Shown one piece after another: positions 1 to 31,758 of a DNA stretch of 64,000 nt. A program made the translations under genes and the position numbers. Source of the DNA: Mycobacterium sp. DL440. Its GTDB lineage: Bacteria; Actinomycetota; Actinomycetes; Mycobacteriales; Mycobacteriaceae. Under the pieces are notes generated by a model. The model was not told the origin of the DNA, made no database searches, and saw only the letters and a program-made list of their open reading frames with translations. The stretch is from the NCBI RefSeq assembly GCF_011745145.1, contig NZ_CP050191.1, positions 4,605,327 through 4,669,326 of the forward strand, in the 5' to 3' direction. The stretch's first letter is position 1, and each line of letters begins with the position of its first letter.

Positions 1-704
1 CCGAGGTCGTCCGCGGTGAAGGCCTGGCCGACCGGGATCTGGCCGCCGGCGAGGGCGATGCCCGCAGCATCTCCGACCTTCTCACCGATCAGGTGGAATT
101 CGCCGACGTCATCCTGCTCAACAAGACCGACCTGGTGAGCCCGGCGATCCTCGACACCGTCCACACACTGCTGCGCAGACTCAATCCGACCGCCAAGCTG
201 ATCCGGACCGACCACGGCATCGTCGACATCGGCGAAGTACTCGGCACCGGGCTGTTCGACCCGGAGGCCGCCGCCCGGACCCCGGGCTGGGACGAGGAGC
301 TCGCGATGGGACACACACCCGAAACCGAGGAGTACGGCATCAGCTCGATGACCTTCCGCTCCGACCGGCCGTTTCATCCCCAGCGCCTCGGCGACGCACT
401 CGCTCAGGTGACAAGGGTCTTGCGCAGCAAGGGATTCTGCTGGATCGCGAGCCGTCCGACGATCGCTGCCATCTGGTCGCAAGCCGGCCCCAACCTGGCG
501 ATCGAACCGGCGCAGTACTGGTCGGGCACCGAGATCGCGCCGGGTCAGGAGATCGTGTTCATCGGAATCAAGCTCGACCGGGACATGGTCCGCCGGCTAC
601 TCGACGGCGCCCTGCTGACCGATGCGGAACTGGCCGAGGGCCAGCAGGCCTGGGTCGGCTATCCCGATCCGCTACCGACCTGGAGCGTCACCCACTCGCA
701 CTGA
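1..704 (+). CDS. CobW/COG0523 family GTP-dependent metal chaperone, 3' part
   Basis: The reading frame is open from base 3, so the gene begins before the window; only the C-terminal ~233 residues are seen. An NKTD motif (the G4 guanine-specificity motif, bases ~119-130) is followed by a CobW C-terminal domain with the 'RPFHPQR' element typical of this family. COG0523 proteins are GTPases that deliver metals, often zinc, to client proteins. The intact NKxD distinguishes it from the degenerate paralogue at 11749. The neighbours (AztD-like lipoproteins, Zur-like boxes, alternative ribosomal proteins) favour a role in zinc homeostasis, which is inference. Its 3' end overlaps the convergent methyltransferase by 17 bases. 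Confidence 0.85.
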   Translation, partial: EVVRGEGLADRDLAAGEGDARSISDLLTDQVEFADVILLNKTDLVSPAILDTVHTLLRRLNPTAKLIRTDHGIVDIGEVLGTGLFDPEAAARTPGWDEELAMGHTPETEEYGISSMTFRSDRPFHPQRLGDALAQVTRVLRSKGFCWIASRPTIAAIWSQAGPNLAIEPAQYWSGTEIAPGQEIVFIGIKLDRDMVRRLLDGALLTDAELAEGQQAWVGYPDPLPTWSVTHSH

Positions 705-1515
705 GAGGCTTGCGGCCCCACACCGAGTACATCGTCGGTGACCGGTAGACGAACGCCGGGTCCTCCATGGCCCGACGGGCGTCGGCCAGGACCGATTCGG
801 TGATGACTCCGCCGGCGATCATCACGTCGTCGAGCTTCGCAAAGCTCTCCACGAGAAACCCCGATTTCACGCTTCCGCCCCGCTCCGTCGTCGAGCCGAC
901 ATCGCTGCCCGTGGCCTCCAGACCCAGCCCGTCCACGTGGGCCGGCAGCCGTGCGCCGTAGTGCAGATCCATCACCCCTGCCGCAACCAGAAACGCGTGA
1001 CGCGCGCGCACGTAGGCATGAAAGCCCGCCGCCGACGGATGGTCCGGGGTGAGTGATTGTGCGGTGCTGTAGTCGGGCTCCTCGACAACCAGCCAACCAC
1101 CCGGACGGAGCGCCGCCACCATGCGGTGCAGCACCGCGAGCGGATCGGTCATGTGCACCATCAATACCCGGCAATGCACGAGGTCGTATGCCGCCGGCTC
1201 GATCTCGTCGCGCGTGATGTCGCAGCGACGTACCTCGATCCCCAGCGCGGGCAAGTCGTCGAGGAACTTCGGATCCAGGTCAACAGCGACGACATGGCCG
1301 GTTGGTCCCACGCGGCTGCCGAGCCACCGCGCGACCGATCCCCCACCCGCGCCGACTTCAAGACAATGCCAGCCCGGACCGACCCCGATGGTGTCGAAGG
1401 TGCGGGTGGTCCGCGGATCACCCAGACCTTCAAGCCGCTGCAGACGCTCCCGCTCCCGCGTCTCTTCGTAATCTGCGGCAAAGTACCGCCCGCCCTCATC
1501 GGCATCGATTGGCAT
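688..1515 (-). CDS. Class I SAM-dependent methyltransferase
   Basis: A 275-residue protein. Motif I, LEVGAGGGS at residues ~52-60, is the glycine-rich SAM-binding loop of class I methyltransferases, followed by an acidic strand end (VVAVDLD) and a later 'RPGGWLVVEEPD' segment typical of small-molecule methyltransferases. The ATG at 1515 is the first in frame. It runs convergent to the CobW gene and overlaps its stop region. The substrate cannot be read from the sequence, and nothing in the neighbourhood fixes it. Confidence 0.75.
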   Translation of the reverse strand: MPIDADEGGRYFAADYEETRERERLQRLEGLGDPRTTRTFDTIGVGPGWHCLEVGAGGGSVARWLGSRVGPTGHVVAVDLDPKFLDDLPALGIEVRRCDITRDEIEPAAYDLVHCRVLMVHMTDPLAVLHRMVAALRPGGWLVVEEPDYSTAQSLTPDHPSAAGFHAYVRARHAFLVAAGVMDLHYGARLPAHVDGLGLEATGSDVGSTTERGGSVKSGFLVESFAKLDDVMIAGGVITESVLADARRAMEDPAFVYRSPTMYSVWGRKPLSASG

Positions 1516-1541
1516 GCCGACATTCTCGCTGACTCCAGCGA

Positions 1542-2711
1542 CTAGTGTGCGTGTCCTACCGTGCCGCCGAGCTCATTGGGTGCGTGCTCCAGCGTCACCG
1601 ATGCACCTTTCGCGCCGGATTCGACATCGACGATGTGCACCTGATTGGTGGCCGGGTCGGTGACGAACACGTCGTGACCGCGGGCGAAGACGCTCGGACG
1701 GGGCTGTTGCCAGTCGTCGGGCTCGGTCCACGGCTCAGCCACCGCGATGGTCTTGATAGTGCGCCCGGACGCCGGGTCGATGACATAGAGATTGCCGTCG
1801 GTACCCAGGATGAGGCCTTCGGCGTGCGGTCCGCGCGCCAACGACCGGAACGAGTAGCTGACCTGCGGTGGCAGTGACACCAGGCGCAGCTGATTGCTCG
1901 CGGTGTCGACGAGGGCGAACTGGTTGGGCCGCTCCAGCCCGGCGTCGGGATCAACCTTGTAGTCACCGAGGGCTACCGGTGAATCATCATGCCCGCGAAG
2001 CGTTCCCACCCTTCCGTACTCAGCCGGAGCGGCCACCTTGGTAAACGCACCGTCGGCGTAGGTCAATACGCCATTCTCACAGCCGAATACGAGGGTGGAG
2101 GCGTCGACGACGGTTTCTCCGTGAATACCGGGGCACTCATTGTTGCGGGCGATCTCCCGATCGGAGGCGTCGAAGGCAACCGCACCGCTGCGCTCGTCGG
2201 AATTGCCTTCGCTACGCACCCAGCTTCCGTCGTCCAGCACCACTGCGACGCCATGGTGCGGCTGCGGCGCCCTCAGGTTCCTGATCTGCGGTGCGGACGC
2301 GGCGATGTCGTGCGGGTCGACCACGGTGATCTCACCGGATCCGTCGGCAAACAGCACGGTGTGTTCGCCGTGCGCCACAACGTGACCGGGCTCCTCGGCC
2401 ACGAACATGGTGTCGGTCAACTCGCCCGCCGACGCGTCGAGCAACCGGAAGCCCTCATCGGTGGACACCAGCACGTGCGCATCGTCGCCGGCCGGGTTGA
2501 CCCGCAGGAACCCCTCCATCGGGACGTCCGCTTTGACCTGCAGGCTGTTGCCGTCCAACACGTACAGCCCACCGTCGTAGGTGACCACCAGCGGATCGGC
2601 TATCGGCTCCGCGCGCGCCGCCGGCTGCGATTCGCCACCGCCGCAAGCGGCCAAGGCCGCCGCGAGCGCGAGCGCACCGACCGGCGCCATGACCTTCAAT
2701 GGATTCGGCAT
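1542..2711 (-). CDS. AztD-like zinc metallochaperone lipoprotein (beta-propeller)
   Basis: A 389-residue exported lipoprotein: hydrophobic signal with lipobox LAAC, Cys23 as the acylated residue. The body has repeated VDP/VLDDG blade signatures of a beta-propeller. It carries elements like those of the periplasmic zinc chaperone AztD: a 'PQPHHGVAV' segment, a 'CPGIHGE' segment and 'FGCENGVL', giving a conserved cysteine pair and metal-ligating histidines, plus a C-terminal GHAH. AztD hands zinc to the AztC binding protein of an ABC importer. GGAGAAGG lies just upstream of the ATG. It is followed in the same orientation by nothing obvious and preceded (31 bases) by a paralogue. The family assignment is from motif resemblance only. 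Confidence 0.7.
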   Translation of the reverse strand: MPNPLKVMAPVGALALAAALAACGGGESQPAARAEPIADPLVVTYDGGLYVLDGNSLQVKADVPMEGFLRVNPAGDDAHVLVSTDEGFRLLDASAGELTDTMFVAEEPGHVVAHGEHTVLFADGSGEITVVDPHDIAASAPQIRNLRAPQPHHGVAVVLDDGSWVRSEGNSDERSGAVAFDASDREIARNNECPGIHGETVVDASTLVFGCENGVLTYADGAFTKVAAPAEYGRVGTLRGHDDSPVALGDYKVDPDAGLERPNQFALVDTASNQLRLVSLPPQVSYSFRSLARGPHAEGLILGTDGNLYVIDPASGRTIKTIAVAEPWTEPDDWQQPRPSVFARGHDVFVTDPATNQVHIVDVESGAKGASVTLEHAPNELGGTVGHAH

Positions 2712-2742
2712 CCTTCTCCTTCGTGTGCCTGTTGTTGTGGAG

Positions 2743-3858
2743 TCACCAGCCCGCGACCGTCATGAAGTCAGGGGTCACGGCCGGGTGGTGCGTACGAACC
2801 ACCCGGAGGCCGTTCGAATAGTCGATTTCGTGCACTGCCTTTGCCGTCGCGTCGTTGACGTAGGCCCGCCCGGCGCCAACCTCGATCACCGGGGTGCCAA
2901 CCGGAGGCGCGAGAAGTTCGACGCGGCCGGTGCGCACGCCTGCCGCCACATCGAGCGCATGCAGGCCGCCGTCTTCGGTTAGGGCCAGCACCGTGGTGGC
3001 GCCGGCGGTGTTCACCGCAACCACACCGGGCAGCCGCATCGACGACCATCGGCGTCCGTTGAGCAGCCACACCTCGTCACCGGCCACCGCCGCCAACGAA
3101 TTCCCTTGCCTGCGATAGCCGAACGATCCCAACGGTTCTCGGGGCCGAACCGGCCCGAAGGGGATGCTCTCGGCGGCCGGCACCCCGCCGCGCCGGACGA
3201 TCTTCAACGCACCGTCACGGCAACCGAGCACGACCGTCCGGCGCAGTACCACCGCGTCGGTGACCGCCGGGCAGTCTCCGAGCACCGTGGTCTGTTCGGC
3301 GACCTTGCTGACCAGACCGTGGTCGGCCACGGTCAGCAAGTCGCTGCCGAATGGGATTGCAGCTACTGCGTTTTCAGATTCCGAATGCGCGGCTACCAGC
3401 GTCACCTCACCCCGCGCGAAGGCGTCCCGATCCAATGAGGTGACCGCACCATCAGCGCGGCGGGTGACGGCCAGCGCACCGTGGGCCCGTACCGCGATGA
3501 CCCGCCCGTCGATCCCCCCCACCACGGCGGGCGGTGCGTCATAGAAGTGCGAATGGTCGCCGTGGTCGAAGGTCCATGCCCCGCCGTCGAGGATCGTCAG
3601 GCCGGCATCGTCGTGCAGGTAGGCGTACCGGCCGTCACCGCTCACGGCGTCGACGCGGCCGTGTTGCCCCAGACCGGTCTCGACAGAGTCCGCGACATCG
3701 AGCACCGCGCCGGCGCCGGCGTGTCGCTCCACCAGGATCAGCCGCGTCACCGGCCGCTCAGACTCCCGCGGCGACGCATTCTGCCGGGCATCCGGAGGGG
3801 TGGAGCACCCGGCGATCAGGAGGGCGACGAGCGTGATCACCAAGGCCCTGTTCAGCAC
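2743..3858 (-). CDS. AztD-like beta-propeller lipoprotein, second copy
   Basis: A 371-residue lipoprotein with lipobox IAGC (Cys18), paralogous in layout to the downstream gene: a His-rich 'DHGDHSHFYD' stretch near residue 100, and a cysteine pair in 'GDCPAV' and 'LGCRDGAL' at positions equivalent to the AztD-like cysteines. Sequence divergence from its neighbour is large, so the duplication is old. The GTG start at 3858 lies only ~20 bases from a Zur-like dyad and has no good ribosome-binding site, so the transcript may be leaderless. Probably a periplasmic zinc-binding protein co-transcribed with the next gene. Confidence 0.65.
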   Translation of the reverse strand: MLNRALVITLVALLIAGCSTPPDARQNASPRESERPVTRLILVERHAGAGAVLDVADSVETGLGQHGRVDAVSGDGRYAYLHDDAGLTILDGGAWTFDHGDHSHFYDAPPAVVGGIDGRVIAVRAHGALAVTRRADGAVTSLDRDAFARGEVTLVAAHSESENAVAAIPFGSDLLTVADHGLVSKVAEQTTVLGDCPAVTDAVVLRRTVVLGCRDGALKIVRRGGVPAAESIPFGPVRPREPLGSFGYRRQGNSLAAVAGDEVWLLNGRRWSSMRLPGVVAVNTAGATTVLALTEDGGLHALDVAAGVRTGRVELLAPPVGTPVIEVGAGRAYVNDATAKAVHEIDYSNGLRVVRTHHPAVTPDFMTVAGW

Positions 3859-3866
3859 CCCAAACT

Positions 3867-3897
3867 CTTATCATTAATGACATTCATTTTCAATAAG
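3867..3897. promoter_or_regulatory. Zur-like operator between AztD-like lipoproteins and bluB
   Basis: The AT-rich dyad TGACATTCATTTTCA (3878-3892) lies inside a longer AT-rich stretch that begins CTTAT and ends ATAAG. It resembles the mycobacterial Zur consensus (TGAAAAT...ATTTTCA), matching 5 of 7 positions between arms. It sits 20 bases from the divergent lipoprotein start and 49 bases from bluB, in an otherwise GC-rich region. A -10-like TAATGAT overlaps the dyad on the minus strand, consistent with repression by bound Zur. Assignment is by resemblance. Confidence 0.55.
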
Positions 3898-3940
3898 GTC
3901 GGATGCCCGCCACGCCCGAGGGCCCGCCTAAGCTCGATCC

Positions 3941-4600
3941 GTGTCCGAGCACGCCTTCAGCCCCGACGAGCGCCGCGCCGTCTACCGGGCCATCGCCGAA
4001 CGTCGGGATATGCGCCGATTCGTTCCCGGCAGCACGGTGCCGCCCGAGGTCCTCGGACGGCTGCTGCAGGCCGCCCACGCGGCACCGAGTGTCGGCCTGA
4101 TGCAGCCGTGGCGGTTCATCCGCATCACCGACGATGCACTGCGCGGCAAGATCCACGCCATCGTCGACCAGGAACGCATCCACACCGCCGACGCGCTCGG
4201 CGCCCGCGGCGACGAATTCCTGGCCCTGAAGGTCGAGGGCATCCTCGACTGCGCCGAACTGTTCGTCGTAGCCCTCGGCGAGAACCGCGATCGGCACATC
4301 TTCGGCCGCCGCACCCTGCCCCAGATGGACCTGGCCTCGGTGTCCTGCGCCATCCAGAACATGTGGCTGGCTGCCCGCGCCGAGGGCCTCGGCATGGGCT
4401 GGGTGTCGATCTTCGAGCCGCTGCCGCTGGCCGAGTTGATGGGCATGCCCGACGGCGCCGAGCCGGTGGCCATCCTCTGCCTCGGCCCGGTGCCCGAGTT
4501 CCCGGACCGCCCGGTCTTGGAGATCGAGCACTGGACCGTTGGGCGCCCGCTGCCCGAATTCGTGGCGGAGAACGGCTGGCCGGCCGACGCATCGCCTTAG
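3941..4600 (+). CDS. bluB: 5,6-dimethylbenzimidazole synthase BluB
   Basis: A 219-residue nitroreductase-fold flavoprotein. It has the BluB hallmark RRDMRRF near residue 21 (FMN phosphate contact) and 'APSVGLMQPWRFI' near residue 48, which separate BluB from ordinary nitroreductases. BluB uses O2 and reduced FMN to fragment the flavin into 5,6-dimethylbenzimidazole, the lower axial ligand of cobalamin. A GTG start at 3941 is chosen as it opens the conserved N terminus. It is divergent from the AztD-like lipoproteins, and pxpA begins 9 bases downstream. Two cobalamin riboswitch operons in the same window make a corrinoid role plausible. Confidence 0.85.
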   Translation: MSEHAFSPDERRAVYRAIAERRDMRRFVPGSTVPPEVLGRLLQAAHAAPSVGLMQPWRFIRITDDALRGKIHAIVDQERIHTADALGARGDEFLALKVEGILDCAELFVVALGENRDRHIFGRRTLPQMDLASVSCAIQNMWLAARAEGLGMGWVSIFEPLPLAELMGMPDGAEPVAILCLGPVPEFPDRPVLEIEHWTVGRPLPEFVAENGWPADASP

Positions 4601-4609
4601 GCTGGACGG

Positions 4610-5371
4610 ATGGCTGCCTCCGTCGACCTCAACGCCGATCTGGGCGAGAGCTTCGGCGCGTGGAAACTCGGTGACGACGAGGCCATGCTGGGGCTGGTCA
4701 CCAGTGCCAACGTGGCCTGCGGTTTCCACGCCGGGGACCCAACCCTGCTGTTGCGCACCTGCCGCGAGGCCGCAGCCAGGGGCGTACGCGTCGGCGCCCA
4801 GGTGAGCTACCGGGACCTCGCCGGATTCGGCAGACGCTTCATCGACGTCACGCCCGAAGACCTCACCGCCGACGTGATCTACCAGATCGGTGCGCTGCAG
4901 GGCCTCGCCCATGCCGCGGGCACGACCGTGACGTACGTGAAACCCCATGGTGCGCTCTACAACACGATCGTCAGCCACCGTGAGCAAGCGGCCGCGGTGG
5001 CGGCGGCCGTGCACGCCGTGGACGCCGGCCTGCCAGTGCTGGGCCTGTTGGGATCGGTGTTCTTCAAGGAGGCCCGGCAGCTCGGCCTGCGCACCGTTGC
5101 CGAGGCCTTCGCCGATCGCGCCTACCAATCCGACGGCACGCTGGTGTCGCGGCGCGAACCTGGGGCGGTGCTGCACGATCCCTCGGAGATCGCCGAGAGG
5201 GTGGCCACCATGGTGTCGGCGGGGCAGGTCAGCGCGGTCGACGGGACCACCATCCCGATCACCGTGGAATCTGTTTGTGTGCACGGTGATTCGCCGGGTG
5301 CGGTGGAGATCGCCACCGCGGTGCGCGAACGCTTGAGCACCGAAGGCGTCAATTTGGCCGCGTTCAGCTGA
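4610..5371 (+). CDS. pxpA: 5-oxoprolinase subunit A (LamB/YcsF family)
   Basis: A 253-residue LamB/YcsF protein of usual length. Family motifs: NADLGES at the N terminus, '[10 protein letters not shown]' near residue 37 and 'VKPHGALYN' near residue 110. PxpA works with PxpB and PxpC in ATP-dependent hydrolysis of 5-oxoproline to glutamate; pxpB and pxpC are not in this window. It starts 9 bases after bluB, so it may be co-transcribed, though no metabolic connection is evident. Confidence 0.85.
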
Positions 5372-5396
5372 CAGATCTACCTGGCATGATGGCCGC

Positions 5397-6398
5397 GTGG
5401 TGGCAAACCCGGCGGTGACGCGGTGGCGGCCGAGTTCCATGCAGATTCTCGTGGCCGGGATCATCGCGTTGGCCCTCGCGGGCACCACGCTGCGTGGGTT
5501 CGTCGAGAACACGCCCGACGTCGCGACGGCAGCCACGGTGTTCTGCGGCGTGTTCGTCCAAGCGCTGCCGTTTCTGGCCCTCGGCGTGGTGATCAGCGGG
5601 CTGATCGCGGTTTTCGTGACGCCCGAGCGCCTGGCCCGCTGGCTTCCCCGGCGTCGCAGCGCGGCCATCCTGGCCGCCGGTGTCGGCGGCGCGGCATTGC
5701 CCGGCTGCGAATGCGGTTCAGTGCCGGTGGCGCGCAGGCTCTTCGGCGATGGAGCTCGCGACGACGCCGTCGGCGCCGCGGCCCTGACCTTCATGCTCGC
5801 GGCGCCGGCGATCAACCCTGTTGTGCTGGTGGCCACCGCCGTCGCCTTCCCCGGACATCCGCAGATGGTGGTCGCCCGCTGTATCGCGTCTTTGTGCACC
5901 GCGCTGATCATGGGTGTCGCGTGGGCGCGGTTCGGCCGCCCGGAATGGATCGCCCGCCGACTGCCGCGTCCTCAACACAGTGACGGTTCGAGGTGGCTGG
6001 TGTTCACCGAAGCGGCCCGCCACGATTTCCTGTCCGCATGCGCGTACCTGGTGGTCGGGGCCGCAGCCGCGGCCGCGCTGCACGTACTCGTGCCGACCTG
6101 GGTGTACGAGCACCTGGCCGGCCAGCTGATCCTGGGCGTGATCACCATGGCGGTGCTCGCCGTGGTGCTGGCGTTGTGTTCAGAGGCCGACGCTTTCGTC
6201 GCCGCCAGCCTGACCATGCTCCCGCTCCTGCCGCGACTGGTGTTCCTGGTGGTCGGGCCGGCCGTCGACATCAAGCTGTTCGCAATGCAGGCCGGAATGT
6301 TCGGACGGGCGTTCGCGATTCGCTTCGCACCGGCGACGTTCCTGGTTGCCACACTCGTCGGGACCGGTGTCGGACTGCTGATCCTGGGGCCGCAGTGA
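5397..6398 (+). CDS. YraQ/COG0701-family membrane permease
   Basis: A 333-residue polytopic protein with about eight hydrophobic segments. It carries the family signature 'LPGCECGSVPVARRL' with the C-x-C-G-S core in the first half, followed by 'APAINPVVL', which is typical of COG0701 permeases. The transported substrate of this family is not established. The stop codon overlaps the GTG start of the next gene (GTGA), so the two are translationally coupled; COG0701 and TIGR03943 proteins commonly occur as pairs. Given the adjacent zinc and cobalt genes, a metal-related role is possible (inference). Confidence 0.75.
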   Translation: MVANPAVTRWRPSSMQILVAGIIALALAGTTLRGFVENTPDVATAATVFCGVFVQALPFLALGVVISGLIAVFVTPERLARWLPRRRSAAILAAGVGGAALPGCECGSVPVARRLFGDGARDDAVGAAALTFMLAAPAINPVVLVATAVAFPGHPQMVVARCIASLCTALIMGVAWARFGRPEWIARRLPRPQHSDGSRWLVFTEAARHDFLSACAYLVVGAAAAAALHVLVPTWVYEHLAGQLILGVITMAVLAVVLALCSEADAFVAASLTMLPLLPRLVFLVVGPAVDIKLFAMQAGMFGRAFAIRFAPATFLVATLVGTGVGLLILGPQ

Positions 6399-7102
6399 GC
6401 CGGGAAACCGAGAACGCCCTCCTACTGCTGATCGGGGTCAGCACGGCGATCATCACCCTCACCGGCACCTTCACCCGTTACGTGAAACCGTCCGTGCTTC
6501 CGTTTCTGGCAGCCACCTCCGTGCTGCTGATCATGCTGGCGCTGGCATCGATCGTGGCCGACATCCGCCACGGCGGCGACGAGGCACACGGCCATCACGA
6601 CCATTCCCACCGACGGGGCACGGCCTGGCTGCTGCTCATCCCGATCGCGCTACTGGCGTTCGTCGTGCCACCGGCGATCCGCCCCCAGGCCGCGTCGGTG
6701 TCCGAAGCGTCCACCGATGTGCTGAGGCGTGCCTTTCCTCCCCTTCCCGACGGCCGGGCACCAGAAATCTCGCTGCCCGACGTGCTGACGCGGGTGGCGC
6801 AAGACAATGCCGGCACCCTCGATGACCGGACCGTGACCGTCTCCGGTTTCACGATGCGTGACGGTGACCGCACAGATTTGGCCCGAGTGGTGATCATCTG
6901 TTGCGCCGCAGACGCTCAGCTGGCCCGCATCCACCTGTCCGGACCCGCTGCCGCTCAGTTGGCCGGGTATCCGGAGAACACCTGGATCAAGGTCGAGGGC
7001 ACGATCCCTGCGGGACAAAGCGATTCGAGCAGAGGCAGTATTCCGACGATGACTGCCCTGAGCGCGGTCCGCACCGACCCTCCGAAGCGGCCCTACGCTT
7101 AG
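6395..7102 (+). CDS. TIGR03943-family membrane protein, permease partner
   Basis: The frame is open from 5993, but the real start is most likely GTG at 6395, which overlaps the permease stop by four bases and gives a 235-residue protein. Two N-terminal membrane segments are followed by a histidine-rich loop (HGHHDHSHRR, residues ~65-74), another membrane helix near 80-95, and a soluble C-terminal domain beginning near residue 120 with 'ICCAADA'. This architecture is the TIGR03943/COG3689 family, the regular partner of COG0701 permeases. The His-rich loop suggests metal contact. Its stop overlaps the convergent FhuF-like gene by four bases. Confidence 0.75.
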   Translation: MSRETENALLLLIGVSTAIITLTGTFTRYVKPSVLPFLAATSVLLIMLALASIVADIRHGGDEAHGHHDHSHRRGTAWLLLIPIALLAFVVPPAIRPQAASVSEASTDVLRRAFPPLPDGRAPEISLPDVLTRVAQDNAGTLDDRTVTVSGFTMRDGDRTDLARVVIICCAADAQLARIHLSGPAAAQLAGYPENTWIKVEGTIPAGQSDSSRGSIPTMTALSAVRTDPPKRPYA

Positions 7103-7764
7103 CCGCGGGGTCTCGTGAGGGAACAGTCCCGGCAGTTGGACCCACCGGGCACCCGGTAGAAGAGGCAGCAGCTGCGGCGACGGAATGTCAGCTCAACCAG
7201 GTCGCCCGTCCCGATCAACTCGCCCATGGCCAACAGTGATTCGGTGACGTCCCGGACATCGTCACGCAATTCCGGTCGGGCACTGGCAAACTCGGCCGCC
7301 GCGGCGACCAACGCCGCGGCGGCATTGCCGTAGAGCAGACGCGGCGCCATCTTGACCCGGAGCCCCGCGGCCAGCGGCTCGAGGTGTTCGGTGATCACCA
7401 GCCGATACAGCTGCTGCGTCAGCGGACGGTGATCGTCCACCGGCCCTCCCACCGGCACCGGCAACCTCAGCTCGGTGCGGGCGGCATGGCGCTGCAGATC
7501 GGCGAGGTCCGGCAGCACACCGAATTGCAGCGCACACGCCAGCAGCGGTGACCACAAGCGCGAGGCATGGCTGAACTGGACCAGCGACGCTCCGATACGC
7601 AGATCCGTCGTGTCGTTGCGCGCGCTCGTCGCGGCGACGAGGTCGGCGCAGCCGTCGTCATAGCAGCGCTGGACCGGAATCCATTCGGCCGGCTCCCCGC
7701 CGACGGTGATCGCGAAGAACCCTCCGTACGAGGTGATTTCGCTCAGCTGGTCACCGATGTTCAC
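7099..7764 (-). CDS. FhuF-like [2Fe-2S] iron/corrinoid reductase-type protein
   Basis: A 221-residue protein from the GTG at 7764, which overlaps the upstream ATPase stop (GTGA). The C terminus has C199, C200, C211 and C214, a C-C-x10-C-x2-C pattern that is the diagnostic [2Fe-2S] motif of FhuF-type siderophore-iron reductases. It is the last gene of an operon whose leader is a cobalamin riboswitch, so the substrate may be a cobalt corrinoid rather than a ferrisiderophore. That is inference; the cluster ligands are directly visible. Confidence 0.8.
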   Translation of the reverse strand: MNIGDQLSEITSYGGFFAITVGGEPAEWIPVQRCYDDGCADLVAATSARNDTTDLRIGASLVQFSHASRLWSPLLACALQFGVLPDLADLQRHAARTELRLPVPVGGPVDDHRPLTQQLYRLVITEHLEPLAAGLRVKMAPRLLYGNAAAALVAAAAEFASARPELRDDVRDVTESLLAMGELIGTGDLVELTFRRRSCCLFYRVPGGSNCRDCSLTRPRG

Positions 7765-8546
7765 GGCCTCGCCCCAACCTTGGCAGGGACGGTGACCTGC
7801 GGCCTGCCGGTGTCGGCATCGATGGCGATCCGGGCCCCGACCCCGTACACCTCGGACAGCAACCCCTCGGTGAGGATGTCGGCCGGCGTGCCGACCGCCA
7901 CCAGCCCGCCCCCGTCGAGCACGCAGATCCGATCGCAGTAAGCCGCAGCGAGATTCAGATCGTGCAACGCGGCGATGACCGTCGCACCGGTCTCCCGCAG
8001 CAGGTGCAGGGCCTCGTGTTGATGGCGCAGGTCGAGGTGGTTGGTGGGCTCGTCGAGCACGATCACGTCGGTGCGCTGGGCCAGCGCCCGGGCGATGAGC
8101 ACACGTTGCTTCTGTCCGCCCGACAGCCGGCCGTAACCGGCCCGGCTCAGTTCCGCGATGTCCAGCGCCGTCATCGCCGCGCCGATGATCTCGCGGTCCT
8201 CGGCGTTGTCGGCCTCGAAGGACCGCTTGTACGGTGTGCGGCCCATGGCCACCATGTCGAACACGGTGAGCTCGAAATCTCCTGCGGCTTCCTGCAATAC
8301 CGCCGCGACCCGGCGTGCGGCCCGCTTGCCAGGCAGCTTCCACACGTCGGTGCCGTCGACCAGCACGCGACCGGTGCTCGGTCGCTGCGCCCGGTACAAG
8401 GTGCGCAGCAGTGTGGTCTTGCCCGCACCGTTGGGACCCACGACGGCCAGCATCTCACCCGGGGCGACGGACAACGACACGTCGGCGATCAACGGTGTAC
8501 CGCGCACCGTCACCGAGACCGCCTCGAACGTCACTGCCGCCGTCAC
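7761..8546 (-). CDS. ABC transporter ATP-binding protein (BtuD/FecE type)
   Basis: A 261-residue ATPase. Walker A GPNGAGKTT lies near residue 37, signature LSGGQKQRV near 140, and Walker B VIVLDEPTNHLD just after. This is the class that energises vitamin B12, haem and siderophore importers. I chose GTG at 8546, which overlaps the permease stop in a GTGA junction, over an ATG at 8573 that would overlap by 31 bases. It lies between the permease and FhuF-like genes of the riboswitch-controlled operon, supporting corrinoid import. Confidence 0.85.
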   Translation of the reverse strand: MTAAVTFEAVSVTVRGTPLIADVSLSVAPGEMLAVVGPNGAGKTTLLRTLYRAQRPSTGRVLVDGTDVWKLPGKRAARRVAAVLQEAAGDFELTVFDMVAMGRTPYKRSFEADNAEDREIIGAAMTALDIAELSRAGYGRLSGGQKQRVLIARALAQRTDVIVLDEPTNHLDLRHQHEALHLLRETGATVIAALHDLNLAAAYCDRICVLDGGGLVAVGTPADILTEGLLSEVYGVGARIAIDADTGRPQVTVPAKVGARP

Positions 8547-9559
8547 GTCACGGCCTTCCGCCGCATCAGCCACAGGAAGAACGGCCCGCCGGCGAGCGCG
8601 GTCAGAATCCCCACCGGCAATTCCTCCGGCGCGGCCACGGTGCGGGCCACGATGTCACACAGCACCAGGAACGCCGCACCCAACAAGGCCGCGGCCGGCA
8701 GCGCTCTCCGGTGGTCGGCACCGACCAGCAGACGCACCACATGCGGCATGATCAGCCCGACGAAGCCGATCGTGCCGCTGACCGCGACCATCGCCCCGAC
8801 CATGAGCGCCACGACGACGAACATCCCCGCCCGGAACCGGTGTACGTCCAGGCCGAGCGAGGCCGCCGCCTCCTCGCCGGTATAGAGCAGGTTCAGCGAT
8901 CGGGTGAAGGCCAGCAGTACGACCACACCGACGAGTACCGCCACTGCGGGCACCCACACCATGCGCCAGGTGGTGCCGCCCAGGCCGCCGAGCATCCACC
9001 GCACGGCCGCCTGGGTCTTGTGCGGATCGTCCGAGGTGACGATCAGCAGGCTGGCCACCGCGGACAGCACTTCGGCCACCGCCACGCCGGCCAGGATCAA
9101 CCGCGCTGTCGTCATGCGCCCGCCCGAGCGGGCCAGGAAGTACACCGCGACGAGTGCGAGGAAGGCTCCGAGGAAGGCCGCCAGCGGCACGGTGAACACC
9201 TGTAGCGCACCGGCGCCGACCACCAGGATCACCACGGCGCCGACCGATGCCCCCGAGGAGACCCCCAGCAACATGGGATCGGCGAGTGGATTACGCACCA
9301 CGGCCTGCAGCGCCATCCCTGACGCCGCCAGGCCGGCCCCGACCACCGCGCCCAGTACGACCCGGGGAAGCCGGGCGTCGAGCACGATGGATTCTCGTAC
9401 CGCAGGCCAACTCTGCTCGACCAGGCCCGGATGGACGGAGTGCAGCACGATGGCCCACACCTGCCCGGGCGCGATGGACACCGACCCGATCGCGACACCG
9501 GCGGTCATCGCCATCAGCAACAGCCCGGCCAGTGCGGCGAGGGTCAGCCGGTAGGGCAT
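8543..9559 (-). CDS. FecCD-family ABC permease (BtuC type)
   Basis: A 338-residue integral membrane protein with about ten hydrophobic stretches. It shows FecCD/BtuC signatures: 'PRVVLGAVVGAGLAASG' and 'NPLADPMLLGVSSGA' in the N-terminal half and 'GTIGFVGLIMPHVVRLLVG' near the C terminus. The frame is open upstream, but ATG at 9559 overlaps the stop of the substrate-binding gene by one base (TGATG) and starts at the first conserved helix. It forms the inner-membrane channel of the importer. Confidence 0.85.
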   Translation of the reverse strand: MPYRLTLAALAGLLLMAMTAGVAIGSVSIAPGQVWAIVLHSVHPGLVEQSWPAVRESIVLDARLPRVVLGAVVGAGLAASGMALQAVVRNPLADPMLLGVSSGASVGAVVILVVGAGALQVFTVPLAAFLGAFLALVAVYFLARSGGRMTTARLILAGVAVAEVLSAVASLLIVTSDDPHKTQAAVRWMLGGLGGTTWRMVWVPAVAVLVGVVVLLAFTRSLNLLYTGEEAAASLGLDVHRFRAGMFVVVALMVGAMVAVSGTIGFVGLIMPHVVRLLVGADHRRALPAAALLGAAFLVLCDIVARTVAAPEELPVGILTALAGGPFFLWLMRRKAVT

Positions 9560-10530
9560 CAACTGAACCGGTCGGGGTGCAGCTGCCGGGCCAGGGCGTC
9601 CACTGCCCGGCCCACCCGTACGCCGACCACAACCGAGGACAACGGGAGGACCGCGAACCGCTGCTGGGCGACAGCCGGAACATGCTGCAGCAGAGGATGT
9701 TCGGTCAGGAACCGTTTCTTGTCCGCGACCGGCTGGTCTCCGTAGTCGTAGATCACGATGACCTCGGGTGCGCGATCGGCGAACTGCTCGAACGACACGT
9801 CGCCCCACACCTTGGGCACATCGGCGAACACGTTGACGCCACCGGCGGCCTCGATCATCAGGTTTCCGATGCCCTTGCCACCCGAGGTGAACACGGTCGC
9901 CTCACCGCTGTCGTAGACCGCGACGCGCACGGGCCGCACCCCGCGCAGCGTCGCCGCGGACTGCGCCAGCTCTCCATGGAGCTTCTCGATCTGTTGCTCG
10001 GCCCCGTCGGTGACGCCGAAGATTGTTCCGATGCTTCGGATTTCGTCATCGACGGTGGATATCGTGACGGGCTCGGACCGGCAATCTTCGATGTTGAGGT
10101 AGGTGTGGACCCCGGCGTCGTTCAGCCGTTGCCTGCCGCGGCCCTCTTTCTCGTCGAACGCGCTGTCCCAGCCGCCGTAGACGAAATCGGGTTCGACGGC
10201 CAGCAGCGACTCGTAGGACGGGTACTCCTTGGCCAGCACCGGAACGGTGTCGTAGGCGGCCTGGTATTCGGGCAGGATCCGATCGTCGAGGTAGGACGTG
10301 CCGACCATGGAATGCTCCAGGCCCAGCGCCAGCAGCGTTTCGATCGCATGCTGATTGAGCGCGACGGCACGGGTCGGCGGCCGGTCGTAGGTGGTGCTGA
10401 CGCCGCAATTGTCCACGGTGACCGGGAAACCCGGCGGCGCATCACCTGCGGTGTCGGGCACTGCGGTCGAGGCGCACCCCGACACCAGTAACGCCGACGC
10501 CAGTCCCGCGATCAGCCAACGTGCAGCCAT
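9559..10530 (-). CDS. Substrate-binding lipoprotein of corrinoid/iron ABC importer
   Basis: A 323-residue periplasmic-binding-protein (BtuF/FepB, cluster A) lipoprotein: signal peptide with lipobox VSGC (Cys19), then 'PTRAVALNQHAIETLLALGL', the first lobe motif of this class. ATG at 10530 is favoured over 10542 because GGAGAGG abuts the latter with no spacing but sits 12 bases before the former. It is the first gene after a cobalamin riboswitch, so corrinoid or cobinamide is the likely ligand. Siderophore binding cannot be excluded from the sequence alone. Confidence 0.8.
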   Translation of the reverse strand: MAARWLIAGLASALLVSGCASTAVPDTAGDAPPGFPVTVDNCGVSTTYDRPPTRAVALNQHAIETLLALGLEHSMVGTSYLDDRILPEYQAAYDTVPVLAKEYPSYESLLAVEPDFVYGGWDSAFDEKEGRGRQRLNDAGVHTYLNIEDCRSEPVTISTVDDEIRSIGTIFGVTDGAEQQIEKLHGELAQSAATLRGVRPVRVAVYDSGEATVFTSGGKGIGNLMIEAAGGVNVFADVPKVWGDVSFEQFADRAPEVIVIYDYGDQPVADKKRFLTEHPLLQHVPAVAQQRFAVLPLSSVVVGVRVGRAVDALARQLHPDRFS

Positions 10531-10578
10531 GGGCGTACCCATCCTCTCCGGGGAGATCCGCCCCAGTGCGTGCGAGGC

Positions 10579-10687
10579 GGCGACTGCGGTGCGTATCTGG
10601 CTCTCGACGGTCAGCGGAGGCTGGCCGATCGATCACAGTGGCGGGACCGCGCCGGATTTACACCGGCTTCCACGATCCGCAGTCGCC
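10579..10687 (-). ncRNA. Cobalamin riboswitch leading the ABC importer operon
   Basis: On the minus strand a perfect 11-bp closing stem, GGCGACTGCGG (10687-10677) with CCGCAGTCGCC (10589-10579), encloses the conserved cobalamin core. The order is GGAAGCCGGTG, an AATCCGGCGCGG step, the B12-box segment CCCGCCACTGT, then GCCAGATACGCA near the 3' side. It ends 36-48 bases before the two candidate starts of the binding-protein gene and can govern ribosome access. It is about 109 nt, compact for the class. The element begins 20 bases after the rpsR stop. Confidence 0.88.
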
Positions 10688-10707
10688 CTATCGCCGTCGA
10701 TCGTAAG

Positions 10708-10974
10708 TCAAGCCGGGCCGACCACCGGCAGCAGCGCCATCTCCCTGGCGTTCTTGATCGCCGTGGCGACCTGACGCTGTTGCTGCGGGGTGAGCCCGGT
10801 GATGCGCCGGGACCGGATCTTGCCCCGTTCACTGATGAAAGTGCGCAGCAGGTGGACGTCCTTGTAGTCGACCTCGGTGACCCCGAGGGCGGTCAGCTGA
10901 TTGCGCCTCGGCTTCTTGAGATCGGTGGCCGGAGGGCGCTTCTTGTTGTTCCGCCGGGAATTCGTCGCCATCAC
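10708..10974 (-). CDS. rpsR2: 30S ribosomal protein S18, zinc-independent paralogue
   Basis: An 88-residue S18 with the core '[21 protein letters not shown]' region and '[24 protein letters not shown]'. No cysteine is present, so this is the C-minus form that replaces a zinc-binding paralogue when zinc is short. GTG at 10974 and ATG at 10971 are adjacent; either overlaps the rpsN stop, so translation is coupled. Last gene of the rpmB-rpmG-rpsN-rpsR operon. Confidence 0.93.
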
Positions 10975-11276
10975 CAGCTCGACTTCCGCACGCCCGGCAG
11001 TTCACCGCGGTGCGCCATTTCGCGCACCCGGACCCGCGACAGCCCGAATTTGCGCAGGTGACCTCGCGGGCGGCCGTCGACCGCGTCTCGATTGCGCAGC
11101 CGCACCGGGCTCGAATCACGCGGCAGCCGTTGCAGCGCCGAGACAGCCGCGGCTTTCTGCTCGCGGGTGCTGTCCGGATTGCGGATGGCCTCTTTGAGCT
11201 CGGCCCGCCGTTCGGCGTAGCGCTCCACGAGTTCCAGGCGCCGTTCGTTCTTGACGATCTTGGATCGCTTGGCCAT
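10971..11276 (-). CDS. rpsN2: 30S ribosomal protein S14, zinc-independent long form
   Basis: A 101-residue S14 of the long, cysteine-free type ([13 protein letters not shown] at the N terminus; '[20 protein letters not shown]' and '[22 protein letters not shown]' in the C-terminal half). The short zinc-ribbon S14 has CxxC-x-CxxC, which is absent here. ATG 11276 overlaps the rpmG stop (TGATG) and its own stop overlaps the rpsR start. Confidence 0.94.
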
Positions 11277-11440
11277 CAGCGCTCCTCGCGGAAGTCGACG
11301 TGACGGCGGATGACCGGGTCGTACTTGCGCAGCACGATCCGGTCCGGGTCGTTGCGGCGGTTCTTGCGGGTGACGTAGGTGTACCCGGTCCCGGCGGTCG
11401 ATTTCAGCTTCACGATCGGCCGGATATCGGTGCGGGCCAT
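11276..11440 (-). CDS. rpmG2: 50S ribosomal protein L33, zinc-independent paralogue
   Basis: A 54-residue protein read directly from the bases: [20 protein letters not shown], then a basic stretch ending in HVDFREER. The sequence matches L33 but has no cysteines, so it is the zinc-free form. ATG at 11440 overlaps the rpmB stop and the TGA at 11278-11276 overlaps the rpsN ATG, each by one base. Confidence 0.93.
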
Positions 11441-11676
11441 CAGATCTTCTCCCCTGCGCTACGCAACCGGGCCACCACGGCCTCGATGCCGTCGCGGTCG
11501 ATCACCTTGATCCCCTTGGCGCTCACCCGAAGTCGGATCCGGCGGCCTTCGGTGGGTAGGTAGTAGGTCTTGTTCTGAATGTTGGGGTTCCAGCGGCGGC
11601 GACTGCGCTTGTGCGAGTGCGACACCGTGTTGCCGAACCCGGGCGAGCGCCCGGTGACTTGGCAGTGGGCAGACAT
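11440..11676 (-). CDS. rpmB2: 50S ribosomal protein L28, zinc-independent paralogue
   Basis: A 78-residue L28 ('[19 protein letters not shown]' near the N terminus and '[15 protein letters not shown]' after it). Only one cysteine remains, so it lacks the paired CxxC zinc ligands of the standard form. A strong GAAGGAG site precedes the ATG. First gene of the four-gene alternative ribosomal operon; a Zur-like dyad at 11710-11724 lies 34 bases upstream of the start. Confidence 0.94.
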
Positions 11677-11699
11677 CGGTCTCCTTCGGATGGGGTAGC

Positions 11700-11730
11700 C
11701 TTACGATAATGATAATCGTTTTCAACAACA
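11700..11730. promoter_or_regulatory. Zur-like operator between rpmB2 and the COG0523 gene
   Basis: The dyad TGATAATCGTTTTCA (11710-11724) lies in an AT-rich stretch between divergent genes. It is close to the mycobacterial Zur consensus and matches in form the box at 3878-3892. It is positioned 34 bases from the rpmB2 start and 25 bases from the GTG at 11749, so one operator could repress both directions under zinc sufficiency, as described for alternative ribosomal proteins in mycobacteria. Confidence 0.7.
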
Positions 11731-11748
11731 ACTTCGTCGGGAGGTGCA

Positions 11749-12939
11749 GTGCGAACCCCTGTGGTGCTGATCGCCGGTCAAGGTGACAGCGACGGCGTAG
11801 CGGAAGAATTGGGACGCAGGCCGGGAACCGTGCTGGTGCGCCACGGCTTTGACGGCCAGGTGGTCCTGCGGACCGTGTCCGACAACGGCGGGTCGTCCGA
11901 GCTCGCCCTCGAGCTCGCCCACGGTTGCGTGTCCTGCACGGTCCGCGATGACCTGCTGATCCTGTTGCGGCGGCTGCACCAGCGCGGCGACGTGGAGCGC
12001 ATCGTCGTGCAGTTGATGCCGTGGTTGGAGGCCGAGGCGGTGTGCTGGGCGATCAACACCATCCGGGTCCACGTCGGGCCCGGTTACCTCGACGGGCCCG
12101 CCGCCCGCGACGTCGGCATCGAGGCAGTCATCGCATGCCTGGACGCCACGGTCTGGCTGCAACAGTCCGTCGGCGACGAGGAACTTCCCGACGGACGCAC
12201 GGTCGCCCAGGTGGTCGTCGGTCAGGCCGAGTTCGCCGACATGCTGGTGCTCAACGAGCCCGACGCCACCACACTGGCAGTGCTCCGCCGGCTCGCACCC
12301 CGCGCCCGCATCACCGTGGGCCCCGACCGGGTCGAGCTCGCCCTGGCGCATCTGGAACCGAACAGCCGGCGCGGACGCACCGCCACCCCGCACGATCCAC
12401 TCCTGGCCGGTGAGCCGCCGCTGGAACCCGACGACGAGGTCATCATCGTCGAATTCGCCGCACGCCGGCCGTTTCACCCGCTGCGCCTGCACGACGCCGT
12501 CGACCACCTGCTCGACGGCGTGGTGCGCACCCGCGGCCGAGCCTGGCTGGCCAACCGCCCGGCCGACGTCATGTGGATCGAATCCGCGGGCGGCGGAATG
12601 CACTTCAGCAACGCCGGGAAATGGTTGGCCGCAATGGGTTCCACCGAACTCGCCTACACCGACCCGGAACGCCTGGCGATGGCCGCGATCGACTGGCATC
12701 ACCAATTCGGCGATCGGCACGTATCGCTGACGGTACTGGCCTGCGGTGCCCGGCCCGGTGAAGTCATCGAGGCACTGCGCGGCGCGCTGCTCACCGACGA
12801 CGAGCTGGCACGACCGGACCTGTGGGCCGATTACCCCGACCCGTTCGGGGATTGGCACGAGGAACCCTGTCAGCCGGCGGTCGAAGAACCCGCCGTGTCC
12901 GGCCATCAGGAAGCCCACCAGGAAGGGGAATCCCAGTGA
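11749..12939 (+). CDS. COG0523-like protein of the Rv0106/Mrf type, degenerate GTPase
   Basis: A 396-residue protein with the CobW-family scaffold: '[14 protein letters not shown]' near residue 64 (the metal-binding GCxxC region) and a C-terminal CobW_C domain with '[13 protein letters not shown]'. Walker A is replaced by [10 protein letters not shown] and the NKxD position reads NEPD, so classical GTP binding looks lost. Position and sequence correspond to the zinc-regulated protein divergent from rpmB2 in mycobacteria. I recall this as the factor (Mrf) reported to recruit the hibernation factor Mpy to zinc-free ribosomes; that identity is from memory. GGGAGG precedes the GTG start. Confidence 0.8.
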
Positions 12940-30547: not shown

Positions 30548-31345
30548 TCACGCCGCAACTGACTCCCGCTTGCCGTCCAGCAACCGCGACAGCGACGCCG
30601 CTCCGACAAGTCCGATCGTCGCCCAGATGATCACCTGGGTGCCCAGGCCGTAGAGCCGGAACTCGTAGAGATCAACCGCCGGGAAACCCGGGAACACGAT
30701 GTTGCCGGCATCATCCCGCAACGGGCCGGGTGTCTCATTGATCGTGGGCAGGATCAGCATCAAAACCGCCACCGCGACGATGTACGCCGCAGCCCCCGCG
30801 AGGGTCGCATTCCAGGAACCGAGCTTCGGTGCCAGTTGATGGCCGAGATACGCCGCGGCGACCATCAGCAGCGCCGACAAGCCGACCATCAACAAGTACA
30901 GCAGCGCCCGCTGCGTGATCGTCTCATCGAGGCTCGTAGCCGGAGGATTCGGCGGGTACTTGAGCGAAGGCACGATCCACAGCGAGATCAGCATGCCGCC
31001 GGCGATGAGCACGGACAGCGTTCGCGCCGACAGGTTGTTGAGCCGGCCGTATGCCACACAGAACACGACGGCAAACAACGCACCCATCGCGACGCTGAAC
31101 AGCAGCACACCAAGTCCCATGCCTATGTTGGACTGAATCCCGCGGCTGAAGAGCTCACCACCCTCTTCACCATGGCTGTGGCCACCATGTGCAACAGACA
31201 TTGCCTCATGGGCCGCCGCAGTACCGTCCTCGAAATCGATTGCGCGGCCGACGATGGGTTCGATGAAGATCTTCGACCACACGAACGCGAAAACACCAGC
31301 TAGGGCGCCGGCGAGTACGCCGCGCCAGATGACATGTTTTTCCAT
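30548..31345 (-). CDS. cbtA: Cobalt transporter subunit CbtA
   Basis: 265 residues with five or so membrane helices, starting 'ILWRG/VIWRGVLAGALAGVFAF'-like and typical of CbtA. A His-rich cytoplasmic or periplasmic loop 'AHGGHSHGEEGG' (residues ~52-63) suits metal binding. CbtAB is a predicted cobalt transporter regularly found under B12 riboswitches. It follows cbtB by 24 bases. Confidence 0.88.
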   Translation of the reverse strand: MEKHVIWRGVLAGALAGVFAFVWSKIFIEPIVGRAIDFEDGTAAAHEAMSVAHGGHSHGEEGGELFSRGIQSNIGMGLGVLLFSVAMGALFAVVFCVAYGRLNNLSARTLSVLIAGGMLISLWIVPSLKYPPNPPATSLDETITQRALLYLLMVGLSALLMVAAAYLGHQLAPKLGSWNATLAGAAAYIVAVAVLMLILPTINETPGPLRDDAGNIVFPGFPAVDLYEFRLYGLGTQVIIWATIGLVGAASLSRLLDGKRESVAA

Positions 31346-31369: not shown

Positions 31370-31585
31370 TCAGTGGCAGGGGAAACCGAGCAGGTGCCGG
31401 GCGTCGTGGACGAACTCATGGATGTACATGTTGTCCCCGAAAACCGAGGTGGCACCCTGGTCGACGCCGACGAAGTACAGCAAGACCAACGCAAAGAACG
31501 CGGTCAAAGACAACCAGGCCACAGCACTGGCGGCAGACAGGTCGACTGCGGCGGCCCGGCTCTTACGCGCCTCGGGAGTAGTCAT
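31370..31585 (-). CDS. cbtB: Cobalt transporter subunit CbtB
   Basis: 71 residues from ATG 31585 (an upstream in-frame ATG at 31621 would fall within the leader). A single membrane helix (residues ~18-40) is followed by the CbtB C terminus with conserved histidines and Cys: 'MYIHEFVHDARHLLGFPCH'. GAAAGGA lies 6 bases before the start. First gene after the riboswitch. Confidence 0.9.
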   Translation of the reverse strand: MTTPEARKSRAAAVDLSAASAVAWLSLTAFFALVLLYFVGVDQGATSVFGDNMYIHEFVHDARHLLGFPCH

Positions 31586-31625
31586 CGGAGTTCCTTTCGG
31601 GGATATCGCGTCCCAGTTCAAGGGT

Positions 31626-31712
31626 GACAGGCCAGGGTCTGACTGTTAACAGTGGCGCGGCCGTCCTGGATTCTCACCAGATTCCTATGCCTGTCGATTA
31701 CACCAGCATCCT
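31626..31712 (-). ncRNA. Cobalamin riboswitch leading cbtB-cbtA
   Basis: On the minus strand GACAGGC (31695-31689) pairs with GCCTGTC (31632-31626) to close the core. Inside are GGAATCTGGTGAGAATCC, then a GG-CGCGCCACTGT B12-box segment and 'AACAGTCAGACC'. The 3' end lies 40 bases before the cbtB ATG. It is only ~70 nt between stems, a compact form; a further 5' segment (to ~31712) may take part. Consistent with cobalt uptake being repressed when cobalamin is sufficient. Confidence 0.85.
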
Positions 31713-31758
31713 AACTACCGCGCAGGAGATCGCTCGTCGGCAGGTATGAAACCGGTAT

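Follow-up and report, generated by a model that had tools for sequence, protein, structure and literature searches.

A cobalamin riboswitch and an FhuF-like partner point to corrinoid import by a BtuFCD-like operon of mycobacteria

The locus described here raises the question of which compound is imported by a BtuFCD-like ATP-binding cassette (ABC) transporter whose operon begins with a cobalamin riboswitch and ends with a gene for an FhuF-like protein. The locus lies in a stretch of 64,000 nucleotides (nt) from Mycobacterium sp. DL440 (GCF_011745145.1, contig NZ_CP050191.1, positions 4605327-4669326), referred to below as the window, and the host genome is a single contig of 6.38 Mb. The closest named relatives found belong to Mycolicibacterium, the substrate-binding protein (SBP) of the operon being 95% identical to that of M. 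septicum. The best explanation, to which we assign a probability of roughly 0.75, is that the operon encodes a feedback-controlled corrinoid importer with a reducing partner.

The whole window was searched with cmscan against 4227 Rfam families, using the gathering scores as cut-offs. A single match exceeded its gathering score, the Cobalamin riboswitch aptamer RF00174 at 10571-10696 on the minus strand (42.7 bits, gathering score 31.5; E = 2e-7 for 64 kb and 4227 families). The original prediction had described a riboswitch core with an 11-bp closing stem at 10579-10687, to be checked with Infernal and the Rfam models, and this search bears it out. The P1 stem pairs 10687-10677 with 10589-10579 in 11 perfect base pairs, and in an alignment of 15 relatives two of these pairs are altered on both sides, as expected of compensatory change. 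Standard pairs occupy 98.0% of the pair cells in the alignment, and at most 49.4% once the partner strand is slid. Covariation was judged by five measures, two of which do not beat the shuffles. Cells with both sides changed number 24 against a shuffled mean of 9.3, a value reached in 0 of 500 shuffles; the number of doubly changed pairs (6 against 4.4) is reached in 44 of 500 shuffles, and that of further pair types in 283 of 500. The folding energy of the sequence on its own does not stand out (z -1.27). The cobalamin riboswitch is real, and it almost certainly controls the four-gene operon that follows it.

The first gene of the operon (9559-10530, minus strand, as for the other three) encodes a BtuF-like SBP lipoprotein (PF01497, 87.2 bits; model predicted local distance difference test, pLDDT, 91.2). 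Position 10530 is preferred as its start over the ATG at 10542, because the latter is not kept in all relatives (it is ACG in loci L005 and L012); the start at 10530 gives MAARWLIAGLASALLVSGC, a lipobox (LVSGC). The gene is followed by those for a FecCD/BtuC-type permease (8543-9559; PF01032, 329.9 bits), a BtuD-like ABC ATPase with a GTG start assigned from the sequence (7761-8546; PF00005, 107.5 bits), and an FhuF-like protein, also with a GTG start (7099-7764; PF11575 FhuF_C, 30 bits, cut-off 20.5). With these starts the successive overlaps are 1, 4 and 4 nt, so that each gene overlaps the next, as had been claimed. The three families that make up a BtuFCD importer, PF01497, PF01032 and PF00005, are thus found in one operon, and they are the same three Pfam families as in BtuFCD of E. 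coli and in the btuFCDR system of B. subtilis.

Between the aptamer and the SBP gene lies a P13-like hairpin (10548-10566, minus strand), kept in 15 of the 15 aligned relatives in the form CUGGGG-loop-CCCCGG. Its loop (10554-10560, GGAT) is complementary to the L5 loop (ATCC), over just 4 nt in the window and over 4-7 nt across the 15 relatives. The 3' strand of the hairpin continues into a Shine-Dalgarno-like GGAGAGG (10543-10549, minus strand), the first two G of which are within the hairpin in the window. From this arrangement we infer that the riboswitch is likely to act as a translational off-switch. Several other mycobacteria (L124, L125, L127 and L130) have extra sequence before an SBP start that is further downstream, so it is the window lineage that simple occlusion describes best. 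A possible -10 hexamer, TACGAT, is located at 10700-10705 (minus strand), with the similar TACCAT in several relatives; the RNA would then begin just 5' of the aptamer. This hexamer, found from sequence and alignment, is graded as weak because a scan of 10400-11800 for terminators and for sigma-70 promoters with a -35 box gave nothing.

To assess the conservation of this linkage, relatives of the SBP were collected from named genomes (116 confirmed), and the best 80 of the 116 loci were kept, 68 of them at ≥47% identity and the remaining 12 at ≤37%. A covariance model of our own, trained on 24 riboswitches, detected a same-strand riboswitch no more than about 370 nt upstream of the aligned start at 67 of the 68 close loci, 9 of which were among the training set. 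These loci span mycobacteria, Streptomyces and Streptosporangiaceae. The sole miss is L019, where no riboswitch was found with this model, and the riboswitch of L018 is weak (35.8 bits). Rfam alone detected a riboswitch in 8 of 8, 20 of 20 and 4 of 4 (L136-L139) SBP loci. None of the 12 remoter loci has a riboswitch directly upstream of the SBP gene; at five of them, all rhizobial, a riboswitch stands ahead of ATPase-SBP-permease genes. In the genus, an SBP match of any kind was obtained in 69 of 198 genomes. The permease was followed through a class sample of 394 genomes, and a riboswitch was present at 24 of the best 29 permease loci besides that of the window; the loci with no riboswitch match are L215, L216, L233, L235 and L236, the flanks of L215 and L216 being probably too short. 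In a 68-row SBP tree (39 alignment rows, 25 of the 29 genus loci and four added rows), the window SBP falls in a clade of 49 rows, 48 of them riboswitch-linked, with support of 100/99.

The FhuF-like gene, which the original prediction listed but did not discuss, is the least expected component of the cassette. Its product has a C-C-x10-C-x2-C motif, with C200, C201, C212 and C215 invariant in 20 sequences, which we presume to be present in E. coli FhuF as well. The model of the protein (pLDDT 91.6) matches the fold of that ferric-siderophore reductase (7qp5; Foldseek E 1.7e-4, TMq 0.68). In contrast to E. coli FhuF, to which it is 16% identical, the window protein is linked to a B12 riboswitch and scores below the cut-off of the siderophore-iron reductase equivalog TIGR03951 (30.7 against 63.85 bits).

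Besides the window protein, 54 FhuF homologues were compiled, comprising 25 distinct genes from 18 named genomes and 29 loci from a class sample in which 92 of 296 genomes matched, the 29 being the best loci only. At least 18 of the 54 are linked to B12 riboswitches, either alone or in importer operons, and this is an undercount, as linkage was scored with 1.5-kb flanks. Eleven have a same-strand riboswitch of their own upstream, at a distance of 41 to about 575 nt, with eight of the eleven in the named genomes (L149, L150, L151, L152, L153, L157, L159/L175 and L160/L170) and three in the class sample (L177, L194 and L203). Six more are in riboswitch-SBP operons (L148, L180-L183 and L185). When four unlinked homologues were extended, L202 (as L257) proved to be linked and three did not; in L257 a riboswitch leads an operon for a permease (36%), an ATPase (37%) and FhuF at 652-4820(+). 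In this mycobacterial stretch a second riboswitch (7256-7437, minus strand) faces the operon about 2.4 kb beyond FhuF.

A further ARRANGEMENTS is found in genomes G206 (L254) and G262 (L256), where the order is riboswitch, permease, ATPase, SBP and FhuF (L254 1394-5487(-); L256 1593-5778(-)). The mycobacterial SBP-FhuF pair of G206 had been considered as a riboswitch-free iron module; this was abandoned, the wider stretch L254 having a Cobalamin riboswitch of 73.3 bits. L141 is similarly unlinked within 1.5 kb and linked on extension (L256). When L140 was extended (L255, G261), it gave FhuF, SBP and a partial ATPase, with no permease match and no riboswitch; this incomplete cassette sits between TIGR03943 and ribosomal genes, the very place of the window cassette. 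In L246 an FhuF homologue (30%) is located between SBP and permease. In one mycobacterium (G069, L177/L238), which gave no importer match, a lone riboswitch (5204-5334, minus strand) precedes FhuF (4523-5164, minus strand). This unit adjoins recA, and its orthologues by recA in L239 and L240 lack a detectable riboswitch. In L241 an FhuF-like gene (7442-8104, plus strand) lies at the bluB locus, where neither an importer match nor a riboswitch was detected.

A small Cys-rich (CCCG) protein follows FhuF in L242 (5328-5708, plus strand), and a similar one in L023 (6779-7171, plus strand) is under its own cobalamin riboswitch. It matched no Pfam or NCBIfam family, and a search of the PDB gave nothing convincing; we presume from the motif that it is ferredoxin-like. 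L023 also has FhuF followed by a riboswitch before a MetE-sized gene, which we take to be metE. A strong cobalamin riboswitch (80 bits, Rfam) likewise precedes a MetE-sized gene, so named on the same assumption, in L146 (4626-4834, minus strand). In Streptomyces (L038), a riboswitch precedes a GHMP kinase and a ferric-reductase-like membrane protein (PF01794) lies beside the riboswitch-FhuF unit, these side features being at 2135-3436(+) and 690-1902(-); NCBIfam gave weak other names for the kinase, which is presumably PduX-like.

An FhuF tree of 62 rows was constructed, omitting fragments of the own-riboswitch gene L160/L170. One clade of 26 rows (100/99) comprises 18 operon rows, 4 own-riboswitch rows, 1 divergent row and 3 unlinked rows, and no riboswitch was found for L178, L179 and L184 inside this B12 clade. 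The other six own-riboswitch rows are in two more groups. In this tree, as in the 68-row SBP tree, L202 and L141 are labelled 'none', and both are linked in wider stretches. Because the linkage to riboswitches recurs in different arrangements, we assign the FhuF-like protein to corrinoids. With Co(III) chemistry extrapolated from the family, we give it an even chance of being a corrinoid reductase, having raised our estimate from slightly below even when the G206 pair changed sides. It is equally an open bet that the family has a B12 branch in mycobacteria, Streptomyces and Streptosporangiaceae, consisting of [2Fe-2S] corrinoid reductases that would decyanate or reduce the corrinoid after import. 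Members of this branch may, at similar odds, be made in importer operons of several orders or from riboswitches of their own.

Building on the observed riboswitch, gene order, conservation and clade separation, we propose a mechanism that would add to them a direction of switching, a ligand, transport and a reductase role. When the corrinoid coenzyme is scarce, the leader would keep the ribosome site accessible, allowing synthesis of the lipoprotein, permease and ATPase. Within the cell envelope the lipoprotein would bind cobalamin or cobinamide, and the permease and ATPase together would move the corrinoid across the inner membrane. Most likely, the FhuF-like [2Fe-2S] protein would then reduce the incoming Co(III) corrinoid and remove cyanide or another upper ligand, after which the reduced corrinoid could be adenosylated. 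As the coenzyme accumulates, it would bind the aptamer, and pairing between L5 and the P13 hairpin would mask the ribosome site that overlaps this hairpin.

The riboswitch may not be the only control. Upstream of the operon, at 10708-12939, lie C- ribosomal genes, rpsR2 and rpsN2, and a gene for an MRF GTPase (NF047431, 557 bits against 375); L33 and L28 genes of this cluster were identified by reading the sequence. Under joint control by zinc and B12, which would be compatible with corrinoid import, the operon would be transcribed by readthrough from zinc-repressed ribosomal genes, and the riboswitch would add a second level of control. Consistent with this, rpsR2 ends about 11 nt short of the aptamer, the region directly upstream contains a sequence (11701-11725) that we take to be Zur-box-like, and the ribosomal genes are directly upstream in 13 of the 13 closest mycobacterial loci (L005-L017). 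However, the hexamer at 10700-10705 may give the operon a promoter of its own, and in L244 the cassette has no S14, S18 or L33/L28 match beside it. We regard such joint control as unlikely.

On the opposite side, the 3' end of the FhuF-like gene overlaps a convergent TIGR03943 gene. Further on in the window is bluB (3941-4600, plus strand; TIGR02476, 230 bits, cut-off 150), which encodes the 5,6-dimethylbenzimidazole synthase for the B12 lower ligand, and in two other mycobacteria (L244 and L245) the cassette adjoins lamB-bluB, a context in favour of corrinoid import. In Streptomyces bambusae (L018), a Guanidine-III riboswitch (10886-10954, plus strand, 43 bits) is located just downstream of the cassette.

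Import of a corrinoid was predicted originally from the leader. It is still the best-supported function, but the leader by itself is not decisive: corrinoid import does not follow merely from a riboswitch in front of a BtuF-like transporter, since cobalt importers of the CbtJKL kind also have one. Excerpts from PMC7689651 describe CbtJKL of S. meliloti as a BtuF-like cobalt importer under a B12 riboswitch. The main rival is accordingly a cobalt importer of this kind, in which the lipoprotein would bind Co(II) or a cobalt chelate, the FhuF-like protein would reduce the chelate and release cobalt, and the riboswitch would report the end product, B12. The resemblance includes a BtuF-like SBP, a permease and an ATPase under a cobalamin riboswitch. 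Structure searches did not discriminate between ligands and did not favour BtuF by fold; H. pylori CeuE, whose structure was determined with nickel, is nearer to the SBP fold than BtuF is.

The pSymB locus of S. meliloti (L252) has a riboswitch (118.6 bits) and SBP-permease-ATPase genes, the record being unannotated there; from plasmid, riboswitch and gene order we take it for CbtJKL. In contrast to the window operon, it has no FhuF match. Its SBP is about 28% identical to that of the window, versus 41-46% to the tandem SBPs of another system in the DL440 genome, L145 (G000:C1:3050000-3061000). This second importer (3408-7377), possibly for cobalt, consists of a tandem pair of lipoproteins with a permease and an ATPase, preceded by a riboswitch that is sub-threshold in Rfam (28.6 bits; 47.4 bits with our own model). 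In a smaller tree of 35 rows that includes the pSymB and L145 systems, the window SBP belongs to a 16-row riboswitch-linked clade (100/99) and L145 and L142-L144 share a separate one (100/99) with the CbtJ candidates. The window also contains a second, sub-threshold cobalamin riboswitch at 31613-31729 on the minus strand (RF00174 28.5 bits; RF01482 38.6, cut-off 50), with CbtB-like and CbtA genes directly after it (31373-31585 and 30548-31345, minus strand). The latter is CbtA by Pfam (252.5 bits), although the NCBIfam models for CbtA (23.8 against 182.9) and CbtB (22.3 against 64.4) remain below their cut-offs. Cobalt uptake thus seems to be provided for by other systems of the genome.

Carriers of the cassette that cannot make the corrin ring bear on the same choice. 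CbiC is needed for the corrin ring, and its presence failed at first as a discriminator, all 41 carriers of one set being positive; in another set it was found in 26 of 29, against a class base rate of 152 of 296 genomes. That nearly all tested carriers make the ring is what a cobalt importer would predict. The three carriers lacking CbiC are G693, G776 and G568. G693, a genome of this class with 9.2 Mb in 10 contigs and a completeness of 100, has no match to CbiC or CobN, has CobS and four matches to the methylmalonyl-CoA-mutase family, and retains the riboswitch together with an SBP (48%), a permease and an ATPase. Such a genome would gain little from cobalt as far as B12 is concerned, but would gain from a corrinoid. 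It is the only clean ring-less carrier, and is one genome. G776 is a weak half case, with riboswitch and SBP, but with CobN kept and ATPase matches of only 32-33%. G568 was dropped, its SBP being 34% identical to that of the window and its riboswitch not found. A corrinoid is favoured as the ligand because the riboswitch is kept in 67 of 68 relatives while the SBP clade stands apart from the CbtJ-like and F420-0 clades, because the genome holds another, CbtJ-like system plus CbtAB, and because G693 keeps riboswitch and cassette without CbiC and CobN. On these grounds the imported ligand is quite probably a corrinoid, and a cobalt importer is decidedly improbable.

The Pfam families of the operon and its FhuF are typical of siderophore uptake, and 16 rows of the FhuF tree form a clade in which none is linked to a riboswitch within 1.5 kb. 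A ferrisiderophore importer with FhuF as ferric reductase would, however, be under the B12 riboswitch by accident of position, and such an accident would not be kept across 67 of 68 relatives; FhuF kin also occur under riboswitches in several arrangements. We consider this reading very improbable.

General annotation had been expected to call the cassette a siderophore transporter. This proved wrong, as the nearest curated names, and the best-scoring curated families, are those of a putative F420-0 transporter. The scores are all below the cut-offs (TIGR03868, 201.5 against 392.4; TIGR03869, 299.7 against 437.35; TIGR03873, 248.8 against 372.4 bits), and membership was rejected. An F420-0 importer, as these names would have it, has the least chance of all, the three lipoproteins examined that exceed the TIGR03868 cut-off (L071, L074 and L081, 426-489 bits) sitting in another clade at loci with no B12 riboswitch match. 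The riboswitch clades receive TIGR03868 as their best sub-threshold name, with a risk of wrong annotation.

The operon resembles known systems to differing degrees. Its proteins score below the curated BtuFCD equivalogs (BtuF 48 against 234, BtuC 280.1 against 461 and BtuD 244.3 against 537 bits), and its fourth gene is FhuF-like, unlike in B. subtilis btuFCDR, where it encodes an adenosyltransferase. In B. subtilis too, according to excerpts from PMC9600662, btuF has a cobalamin riboswitch in front. We take Rv1819c, the BacA-type transporter of M. tuberculosis, to be built differently from BtuFCD. Mycobacterial corrinoid uptake is credited to Rv1819c, described as nonspecific and promiscuous in portions of PMC8088520 and PMC12713380, the latter a 2025 review that gives decyanation as 'not determined' in the portion consulted.

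The original prediction knew of no characterised BtuFCD in mycobacteria. This holds for the literature consulted, but putative homologues are in print: excerpts from PMC8088520 give MSMEG_4560/4559/4558 as the putative BtuF/C/D of M. smegmatis, of unknown function, and excerpts from PMC12713380 mention putative homologues of M. abscessus and M. smegmatis. Compared by description with MSMEG_4558-4560, the window lineage differs in lying between bluB and C- ribosomal genes and in carrying FhuF. In partial views of other sources, the tables of PMC8192938 leave btuF and btuD blank, and PMC3766115 includes Mycobacteriaceae among the groups covered. No report of FhuF under B12 riboswitches turned up in literature listings, PMC11237697 not having been searched for FhuF; the excerpts from PMC8088520 and PMC9600662 do not mention FhuF, and that from PMC7689651 does so once, on ferrisiderophores.

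The kind of operon is known, with predicted homologues in print, and the new part is the FhuF-like partner with its B12-linked relatives. A dedicated, B12-repressed mycobacterial importer, if true, would allow a direct genetic test of corrinoid uptake in this envelope. Corrinoid reduction by the FhuF-like protein, if true, would fill in a missing reduction step in many actinobacteria. The annotation 'FhuF' then need not mean iron. The nearest names for these genes at present, F420-0 and siderophore, may also be misleading.

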